Below, piece by piece: positions 1,563 through 62,420 of a DNA stretch of 64,000 bases. The first letter of the stretch is position 1. Every line of letters starts with the position of its first letter. Both the position numbers and the translations under genes were made by a program. The DNA is taken from the NCBI GenBank assembly GCA_030447875.1, contig JAUJOA010000007.1, positions 1-64,000 of the forward strand. Direction: 5' to 3'. The notes beneath the pieces were generated by a model. The model made no database searches. It was not told the origin of the DNA and saw only the letters and a program-made list of their open reading frames with translations. The stretch is from Thermoleophilaceae bacterium (GTDB taxonomy: Bacteria; Actinomycetota; Thermoleophilia; Solirubrobacterales; Thermoleophilaceae).

Positions 1563-2566
1563 GTGGAAGCAGTCAAGCTGACGAGCCTGTCGCACGGCGC
1601 CGGCTGCGCGTGCAAGCTGTCGCCGGCTGACCTGCATCCCCTGATCGAGGGCTTCCGAGGTCCTCGGCCGGACCTCATCGTTGGAATGGAGACGGCCGAC
1701 GACGCCGCCGTCTATCGCCTGACCGACGAGCTCGCGCTGATCTCTCACCGTCGACTTCTTCACCGATCGTCGACGACCCCTACGACTTCGGACGCATCGC
1801 GACCACCAACGCTCTCCTCGGACGTCTACGCGATGGGCGGCGAGCCGGTCACGGCGCTCAACCTGGTGGCCTACTCGCTCGAGTCGCTCGGCGGTGAGGT
1901 GCTCCGCGCGATCCTCCGCGGCGGGGCGACGTGGCGGCGGCCGCCGGCGTGGCCGTGGCCGGAGGCACTCGATCGACGACGCGGAGCCCAAGTACGGCAT
2001 GGCGGTGACCGGCACGGTGCATCCGGACCGCCTGCTGCGGAACTCGGCGCGCGCGGCGGATGACCTGCTGCTCACGAAGCCGGTGGGCGGAGGCGGCCAC
2101 CACCGCGGCAAAGCGCGGGCTGGCGAGCGACGGATCTGACGGCGCGAACGGTGGCCGTGATGACGGAGCTCAACCGCGACGCCTCGCGCGCGGCCCTGGT
2201 CGCCGGCGCCAGCGCGATGACCGACGTCACGGGCTTCGGGCTGCTCGGCCATCTGCACGAGCTGGCGAGCGCCAGCGGGGTCGCCGCCGCCGAGGTGGAC
2301 GCCTCCGCCATCCCCGGCGATCGCGGGCGTGCTCGACCTCCTGCGCTCGGACCGGCCGCCGATCGCCGGCGGCGCGCCGCAACCGCGACTGGGTCGAGTC
2401 GTGGGTCGAGTGGTCGCCGGACGTGCCGGATGAGCTGCGGTGGCTCGCATGCGACGCGATGACATCCGGCGGACTGCGTGGCGGCCCTCCGGGATCGGGC
2501 GCCCCGGGCACGCCGATCGGTCGCCTCACCGGCGGCGACGCGGGGCGGATAGCCGTCAGCGCCTGA
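1563..2566 (+). pseudogene. selD: selenide, water dikinase (selenophosphate synthetase), frameshifted in this assembly
   Basis: SelD makes selenophosphate from selenide and ATP, the selenium donor for selenocysteine and 2-selenouridine. The GTG start at 1563 leads into SLSHGAGCACKLSPADL, the glycine-rich N-terminus with catalytic Cys and Lys (a Cys form, not Sec). Further family pieces are [74 protein letters not shown] and the C-terminal DAMTSGGLL region. Length after joining frames is about 330 residues, normal for SelD. Frame changes are single- or two-base slips, for example an extra T near 1744 and missing C bases near 1762. Its 3' end overlaps the convergent rhomboid gene by about 11 bases. 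It is the only selenium-pathway enzyme in the window and matters for the UGA-containing gene at 61559-62230. Confidence 0.85.
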
Positions 2567-55981: not shown

Positions 55982-56254
55982 GGACCGTGCACCCGACCTC
56001 GAAGCCTGCCTCCGGGCGTGCCCGCCGGCCCCGGACTCCGGCCAGGCTTCCCCGCGGCGCATGAACGGAATCGCTTAAGGCTGCTTCCTCCCGGATCTGA
56101 CCTGGTTCGCGAGCGTTCACCGCGCGGGACCTGGCCATCGACGCCCTCGACCGGCGTACTGACCCCAAAGACCTAGCCCCTCAGACGGGAGTTCGGCCTC
56201 GCTAGAGCGGATTGCGAGTGCAGGGCACCGCTACCTCCCCGCCTAGCACGGTCC
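55982..56254 (-). ncRNA. ffs: signal recognition particle RNA, large bacterial type
   Basis: The 5' end GGACCGTGC (56254-56246) pairs perfectly with the 3' end GCACGGTCC (55990-55982). The conserved 5' domain segments GGTGCCCTGC and CAATCCGCTCTAGCGAG match the Alu-type half of Bacillus-like SRP RNA. The S-domain core AGATCCGGGAGGAAGCAGCC with a GGGA tetraloop lies at about 56098-56079 and binds Ffh. Length is about 273 bases, so this is the long form and not the 4.5S form. It lies between dnaX and the TPM-like gene. Confidence 0.92.
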
Positions 56255-58327: not shown

Positions 58328-58399
58328 GGGCGCGTAGCTCAGTGGGAGAGCGCTCGCTTCACACGCGAGAGGCCGCTGGTTCGAACCCAGCCGCGCCCA
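58328..58399 (+). tRNA. tRNA-Val (anticodon CAC)
   Basis: Cloverleaf: acceptor GGGCGCG with CGCGCCC, D-arm GTAGCTCAGTGGGAGAGC, anticodon stem CTCGC/GCGAG with loop TTCACAC (anticodon CAC, reads GTG), T-arm CGCTGG-TTCGAAC-CCAGC. Discriminator A, CCA not encoded. Its 3' 45 bases recur at 61422-61466. Confidence 0.95.
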
Positions 58400-58443
58400 C
58401 TCAAGACCCTGCAGAGCGGCTTCGCGGAAGAGCTTTCGTCGAA

Positions 58444-61421: not shown

Positions 61422-61466
61422 CGCTTCACACGCGAGAGGTCGCTGGTTCGAAACCAGCCGCGCCCA
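61422..61466 (+). repeat. partial tRNA-Val copy (3' 45 bases), putative attachment site
   Basis: This segment matches bases 58355-58399 of the intact tRNA-Val from the anticodon stem to the discriminator, with two differences (C to T after GAGAGG, C to A at the end of the T-loop). The 5' half of the tRNA is missing, so it cannot form a cloverleaf. Same orientation as the intact tRNA, as expected for an att direct repeat. Confidence 0.85.
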
Positions 61467-61558: not shown

Positions 61559-62230
61559 TTAACTGTCGACGTCGTCGCGCCTCACGACGCCAAGCAGCTT
61601 CCCGTGCGGGTCCGAGATAACGAACGTCTTCAGGTCGTGCTCTCGCATCCGCTCTGCGAGCGAGTCGAGTGCGGTGTCCGGACGAGTCGTCGTGGGACCG
61701 GGCTCCATGACCTCCTCGGCGGTCGCTTCCGGGGCTCCCTCGAGCGCGGCCCTGCGGACCCGCCCGAGGAGCGTCCCGCCCTCCGAGACGACGAGCGCAA
61801 ATCCGTAGGGAGACTGGTCGACCGGCTCGCGCAGCTCATGCATGCGGTCGGAGAGCCCGGCGGTGACTACGTCGTCTCGAATGACCTGGCCGACGCGCCG
61901 TAGGGTCGCGTTCTCTCCCTCGACCGGTAGCCCATGACCTACCCAGTCAGCCTTCCCGCCGACGTAGTCGTAGACGTCACGAAACCCGAGCGCTTCGAGC
62001 CGACACGCGGCTCGTGGGCTCATGTCTCACAGGGAGTCGTGGCAGTAGACGATGATCGGGCGCTCGCGGTCAAGGCTCGCAGTCGTCCCGGCGTCGAGCT
62101 GCTTCAGCGGAACGTGAATCGCGCCGGGTAGGTGCTCCTGCTCGTACTCGGCCCGCGGCAGCACCTCGACGAGCTGCGCCTCGTGGGCGAGGAGCCGCTG
62201 AAGCCCTTCCAGGCCGATGCTCTCAGGCAC
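61559..62230 (-). CDS. rhodanese-CBS fusion protein, predicted selenoprotein (in-frame TGA read as Sec)
   Basis: Read through one TGA at 62027-62029, the frame from GTG 62230 (VPESIGLEGLQRLLAHEAQL) to 61559 encodes 223 residues. N-terminal rhodanese: VEVLPRAEYEQEHLPGAIHV, RPIIVYCHDSL, then U68, then DMSPRAACRLEALGFRDVYD YVGGKADWVGHGLPVEG. Two CBS motifs follow (VGQVIRDDVVTAGLSDRMHE, AEEVMEPGPTTTRPDTALDS) with KTFVISDPHGKLLGVVRRDD at the end. Both sides of the TGA are in the same frame and belong to the same domain. U68 sits in the active-site loop, six residues after C62, with a U-x4-R spacing. A SECIS-like hairpin follows. The alternative is a nonsense mutation or a base error. Confidence 0.75.
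61996..62014 (-). promoter_or_regulatory. candidate bacterial SECIS hairpin
   Basis: Reading the minus strand after the TGA (62029-62027), 12 bases intervene, then CGAGCCG, loop CGTGT, CGGCTCG. This is a perfect 7-bp stem with a 5-base loop whose second base is G. The loop begins 19 bases after the UGA, inside the window described for bacterial SECIS elements. It overlaps coding sequence, as bacterial SECIS do. Binding by SelB is not shown. Confidence 0.6.
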
Positions 62231-62420
62231 CGAGCGCCGCCTCCTTCGGCGGGCAGCGCCGGTCGGCGTACGAGCAGAAGACGCAGCAGTCCCCCTCCTT
62301 CGCGCGGAGGAGATCGTGGCATCCCTCGCACTGATAGAAGCGCTGGCAGGCGTCGGTCGGCATCGCCTCGCGCTTCCGGTGCCCGCAGACCGGGCACGTG
62401 ATGGTCGCCTCGAGCTGCAT
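62223..62420 (-). CDS. GDCCVxC-type small cysteine-rich protein (family includes selenoproteins)
   Basis: The 65-residue protein reads MQLEATITCPVCGHRKREAM, PTDACQRFYQCEGCHDLL, AKEGDCCVFCSYADRRCPPK. The GDCCVxC motif with two CxxC-type pairs and PTDAC matches a small family known from bacterial genomes to include selenoproteins with Sec replacing a Cys. Here all positions are Cys. Metal or redox binding is likely. Its stop overlaps the start region of the rhodanese-CBS gene, so the two are probably one operon. The promoter lies upstream of 62420, facing away from the beta-propeller gene. Confidence 0.75.
   Translation of the reverse strand: MQLEATITCPVCGHRKREAMPTDACQRFYQCEGCHDLLRAKEGDCCVFCSYADRRCPPKEAALGA

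Follow-up and report, generated by a model that had tools for sequence, protein, structure and literature searches.

The 2026 inventory of selenoproteins recognizes 119 prokaryotic families, and its Table 1 lists rhodanese proteins in five forms with the motifs UxxS, UxxG, CxU, UxxG, and UxxxxU, the last being TsoB, while CBS domains are unmentioned in it (PMC13188914). The described systems closest to the protein discussed here are TsoB (NF045694, form 5) and the LYCAU rhodanese-related (seleno)protein (NF041203, form 3), together with BH2092 (PDB 3nhv), a rhodanese with a C-x4-C loop. The locus described below encodes a rhodanese domain that keeps its catalytic Cys, an in-frame UGA five codons further on, and a C-terminal pair of CBS repeats.

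The gene lies on the minus strand of the window, by which we mean the whole 64-kb stretch of Thermoleophilaceae DNA analyzed here. The initial annotation had joined two open frames in the same register across a single TGA, and this holds: from the GTG at 62230 to the TAA at 61561-61559 the frame is interrupted only by the TGA at 62029-62027, codon 68, which falls between VYCHDSL and DMSPRAAC. What looks like a broken gene is almost certainly an intact selenoprotein gene. We propose that UGA68 is read as selenocysteine (Sec) and that Cys63 and Sec68 form a redox or transfer pair, a statement to which, taken whole, we assign a probability of roughly 0.8; its first part, the decoding, is on the comparative sequence evidence close to certain. 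The features on which the argument draws are as follows.

61559..62230, minus strand: gene of the predicted rhodanese-CBS selenoprotein, 223 aa with Sec68, GTG start, TAA stop
62027..62029, minus strand: UGA codon predicted to be read as selenocysteine, residue 68; UGA in the same column of 51 distinct related genes
62042..62044, minus strand: catalytic rhodanese Cys63 of the C-x4-U motif; Cys in all aligned relatives but L032, which has UGA
61940..62200, minus strand: Rhodanese domain, residues 11-97 (Pfam PF00581; fold match BH2092, 3nhv)
61565..61894, minus strand: tandem CBS pair (Bateman module), about residues 113-222, from the predicted model and Foldseek
61996..62014, minus strand: SECIS-like hairpin whose 7-bp stem, closed by a 5-nt loop, begins 12 nt 3' of the UGA
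62240..62246, minus strand: Shine-Dalgarno-like AAGGAGG, 9 nt 5' of the GTG, from the sequence
62223..62420, minus strand: GDCCVxC (seleno)protein in its Cys form (NF041374, 97.9 bits, cut-off 40)
about 1575..2315 (limits of the matched pieces), plus strand: selD, selenophosphate synthase (TIGR00476, 139 bits against a cut-off of 125, with neighboring in-frame pieces joined)

Two further statements of the initial annotation, that selD lies in the window and that the adjacent gene belongs to a family containing selenoproteins, are thus borne out. The stop of the GDCCVxC gene overlaps the start of the rhodanese-CBS gene, so the two probably form one operon.

Elsewhere in the window, downstream of the selenoprotein gene, the 3' half of tRNA-Val(CAC) is repeated over 43 nt (61424-61466, plus strand) in direct orientation with the intact tRNA-Val (58328-58400, plus strand), two mismatches being counted by eye. 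This copy resembles an integration (att) duplicate or a leftover piece of tRNA at the border of the 58.4-61.4 kb segment, in which a phosphodiesterase-like gene lies. The bacterial large SRP RNA (RF01854, 179 bits) is found at 55985-56251 on the minus strand, a short way upstream of a gene resembling that of DNA polymerase III gamma/tau.

Searched with Pfam, the read-through protein gives Rhodanese at residues 11-97 (54 bits, cut-off 22) and CBS at residues 172-221 (41 bits). Pfam detects the second CBS repeat only, and profile and fold matches to a CBS pair span residues 107-220; the AF2 model (mean pLDDT 92) consists of a rhodanese domain and a CBS pair, and Foldseek matches its C-terminal half to the CBS pairs of MgtE, MJ0100, and AcuB. 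The CBS sensor of the initial annotation is therefore present, but as a tandem pair and not as a single domain; conservation of the CBS ligand motif is not strict. Single-domain relatives carry a Cys exactly five residues after the catalytic Cys (YCSGPGC, YCRDAYC, YCWGPGC), as does BH2092, and Sec68 accordingly stands where a C-x4-C rhodanese loop has its second Cys. The initial annotation held that relatives have Cys at residue 68, and homologues indeed carry U or C there.

UGA occupies this codon in 51 distinct loci, distributed over many families of Actinomycetota and one Chloroflexota MAG, some of them in closed genomes or on plasmids (G384, Rubrobacter marinus, and two Pseudonocardia plasmids); the comparisons below use the 50 that remained after removal of duplicates, the 51st (L143) having been found later. 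Neither UAA nor UAG was seen at codon 68 in any of the homologous loci compared. Full-length relatives, each with exactly one TGA, occur in 10 of 61 genomes drawn from its own family and order, and family members were found in 17 of 299 genomes of the same class and in 43 of 397 genomes of an even Actinomycetota sample (about 11%). Three genes have Cys at codon 68 (TGC in Nonomuraea L043, TGT in L125, and TGC in L131), and in a tree of 53 proteins, rooted at the midpoint only and with moderate support, they are placed among the Sec genes, which suggests that Sec is the ancestral state of the family. Ser is found at codon 68 once, in a diverged second copy (L155, G118:C20:13586-14236; YCDGGLSDL) whose genome also has a Sec copy, and which is perhaps a non-redox paralogue. 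The Chloroflexota locus (L032), in a genome with selA (566 bits), has UGA at both positions of the motif (430-432 and 415-417), giving U-x4-U; it is possibly a double selenoprotein, resembling the motif of TsoB.

The hairpin reported in the initial annotation, with its 7-bp stem and 5-base loop 12 bases after the TGA, is confirmed and recurs with the UGA across the 51 loci. In the window it consists of CGAGCCG (62014-62008), the loop CGTGT (62007-62003), which falls 20-24 nt after the UGA, and CGGCTCG (62002-61996). Of 50 Sec loci, 47 keep all seven stem pairs, whereas synonymous recoding would leave them intact in 3.4% of sequences, and the folding energy lies below that of recoded copies in every one of the 50. 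The codons that build the stem are frozen (Ala GCC in 48/50, Ala GCG in 50/50, Arg CGG in 47/47, Leu CTC in 50/50), and the stem Arg is CGA in 33 of 50 loci, though CGA makes up only 10% of the Arg codons of these genes; synonymous choice is free at conserved Gly and Val codons near or downstream of the stem. Pairing reaches 99% in register and 19-51% once the partners are slid, L114 and L119 share a compensatory change from C-G to U-A, and L003 has one unpaired stem position. Two of the Cys genes have a broken stem (L125 and L131, with five and three pairs left), and that of Nonomuraea gerenzanensis (L043, 4160) retains a complete SECIS-like stem, which fits a fossil of a recent change from Sec to Cys or could be partly protein-driven. 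An evident bulged U is absent from the hairpin. The conservation of the stem far exceeds any demand of the protein and points to a SECIS-like element. At the Pro codon just before the stem, 26 of 50 Sec loci use CCA, although CCA makes up 6% of the Pro codons of these genes, and the A directly 5' of the stem may be part of what SelB recognizes.

Most of the machinery for decoding is at hand in the same genome. The initial annotation had called for a search of it for selA, selB, and selC; selA and selB were found adjacent to each other on contig 17, in addition to selD in the window, but selC was not found in this 77%-complete MAG even at loose thresholds, the best matches being tRNA-Cys, Ser, Tyr, Met, and Phe. 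The assembly probably lacks the selC region, since the MAG is incomplete and the gene found next to selC in several relatives is represented here only by a 36%-identical paralogue, the orthologues of the relatives being 60-89% identical. In most other carriers selC was found. Among the 53 Sec-carrying genomes, selA scores over its cut-off in 43, and selA, a piece of it, or a strong selC (tRNA-Sec) is present in 48; no Sec machinery was found in five Sec carriers (G046, G234, G397, G620, G624) or in the MAG G677, and these, except for G046, are MAGs of stated completeness of at most 86% or of unstated completeness. The genomes with the Cys form only (G629, G667) yielded neither selA nor selC. 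Within the 61 relatives, selA or selC accompanies the gene in 9 of 10 carriers versus 20 of 51 non-carriers (Fisher p = 0.0045), the value for selA alone being p = 0.075, in both cases with kinship ignored. Recurrence, hairpin conservation, and machinery together lend strong support to the earlier proposal that UGA is read as Sec68, and the checks that the initial annotation had named as able to refute it gave favorable or neutral outcomes.

As to what the protein does, SelB and tRNA-Sec, guided by the downstream hairpin, would read UGA68 as selenocysteine, and the active-site loop would then be Cys63-H-D-S-L-Sec68 in a single-domain rhodanese joined to a tandem CBS pair. Cys63 would accept sulfane sulfur or some other soft ligand; Sec68, as the resolving or accepting selenol, would form an Se-S bond or pass the group on, with the CBS pair perhaps tuning activity through an adenosyl ligand. 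Other Cys/Sec pairs offer an analogy by which a resolving or acceptor role for Sec68 would be the simplest reading of its position, and we infer a C63/U68 selenenylsulfide/persulfide relay. The likely setting is defense against thiophilic metals and organomercurials or against reactive sulfur, the first of these being plausible in its own right from the neighboring genes.

These neighbors were surveyed at 57 loci by means of GC3-filtered open reading frames and tblastn, and they bear on the alternative that survives best, namely that Sec is real but that the C-x4-U pair serves mainly to capture or relay Hg(II), organomercury, or other soft metals after MerB, and not to transfer sulfur. A DF family (seleno)protein gene (NF049942) lies near 17 of the 57 loci (one match weak, one partial), mostly directly upstream on the same strand and divergently in L138; ArsR is nearby in about 10 loci, MerB adjoins the gene in five (L042, L087, L088, L129, L151), a YHS protein is encoded near L153, and L088 has an arsenate reductase and an SBF-family transporter as neighbors. 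Two Pseudonocardia plasmids carry the gene, one copy adjoining MerR and alkylmercury lyase. Selenolates bind Hg tightly, which also favors such a role. About 30% of sampled loci stand beside DF-family, ArsR, or MerB genes, which suggests defense against thiophilic metals or organomercury. Most loci, however, lack such neighbors, and other lineages have unrelated ones, so the metal link may cover only part of the biology. The rhodanese fold, moreover, is typical of persulfide chemistry, and in the window itself the neighbor is GDCCVxC only. We regard a role mainly in metal capture as possible but on the whole doubtful. A broader scheme is equally tentative, in which a widespread actinobacterial family would pass on soft metals or persulfides through a nucleotide-gated Cys/Sec relay and be carried partly on plasmids and in MerB, ArsR, and DF clusters, with a U-x4-U version in the Chloroflexota locus L032. 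An operon conserved throughout the family was considered and rejected, as neighbors vary by lineage, and a search for carriage of the gene by phages found none.

Returning to the decoding itself, UGA68 might instead be a true stop, leaving a 67-aa rhodanese fragment and a separate CBS protein that starts at the ATG at 62023, two codons past the UGA. RefSeq annotates the two Pseudonocardia plasmid copies (L041, L042) in just this way, each as two CDS, rhodanese-like and CBS domain-containing, and an ATG stands two codons past the UGA in 32 of 50 loci. Yet Leu codons take its place in the other 18, and the split-gene or re-initiation model was rejected on the ground that this ATG is not conserved. 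The break would moreover fall inside the rhodanese fold, five residues past the catalytic Cys, with UGA the sole stop codon ever used; the Cys forms are single unbroken genes, and both the hairpin and the association with Sec machinery would be left unexplained. We consider termination at UGA68 very improbable. More improbable still is reassignment of UGA to another amino acid, or low-efficiency read-through, in place of Sec insertion. The frame would be open in other codes as well, but TGA ends 14 of the 26 clear genes in the window, so the genetic code is standard and genome-wide recoding of UGA is rejected; the residue found in place of the UGA, in the three genes and in the C-x4-C relatives, is Cys and not Trp or Gly, and the Sec machinery is present. 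A pseudogene or an error of sequencing or assembly carries negligible weight. Single-nucleotide nonsense changes are generally common in MAGs, but the same codon in 51 independent loci, closed genomes and plasmids included, excludes a sequencing error, and seven close pairs have a dN far lower than dS both before and after the UGA (with one misaligned 5' end as the exception), which indicates that purifying selection acts on either side of it.

Decoding of UGA68 as Sec thus being preferred, the protein can be set against the systems named at the outset. TsoB is likewise a rhodanese with two chalcogen residues spaced x4, but its motif is UxxxxU, as in L032, whereas the motif here is CxxxxU; it is a DsbD-like fusion with a model of 572 positions, in contrast to the fusion to a CBS pair described here, and membership was rejected at 30.2 bits against a cut-off of 805. 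The LYCAU protein shares the rhodanese fold and the presence of both Cys and Sec in the active-site loop, but its Sec follows the Cys by two residues instead of five and it has no CBS domain, and membership was again rejected (26.5 bits against a cut-off of 115; CxxxxU in place of CxU). Forms 1, 2, and 4 have a PF00581 domain with Sec in UxxS or UxxG (PMC13188914), whereas the present protein retains its catalytic Cys and has Sec as the second residue. BH2092 shares the fold (Foldseek probability 1.0, rmsd 1.6 Å, about 30% identity) but has Cys at the place of Sec68 (YCWGPAC), no Sec, and no CBS pair. GDCCVxC and DF (seleno)proteins, small families with Sec and Cys members that stand beside the gene in some loci, differ from it in fold or family, and the neighbors examined carry Cys and not Sec.

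No fitting model for the rhodanese-CBS protein was found in NCBIfam 20.0, and a search of open-licence literature found no description of CxxxxU, GDCCVxC, or rhodanese-CBS selenoproteins, though one may exist unseen; against the 2026 inventory and NCBIfam, the claim that no rhodanese-CBS selenoprotein had been described holds. It is because the family is missing from both that public genomes show two broken genes in its place, an annotation error that recurs in this family. We class rhodanese-CBS as a sixth form of rhodanese selenoproteins, previously unlisted, which adds a subfamily in about one in nine evenly sampled Actinomycetota genomes. Its Sec would stand at the resolving and not the catalytic place of a rhodanese, and with natural Cys, Ser, and double-Sec variants available for comparison, how selenium is used in sulfur or mercury chemistry can be tested directly.
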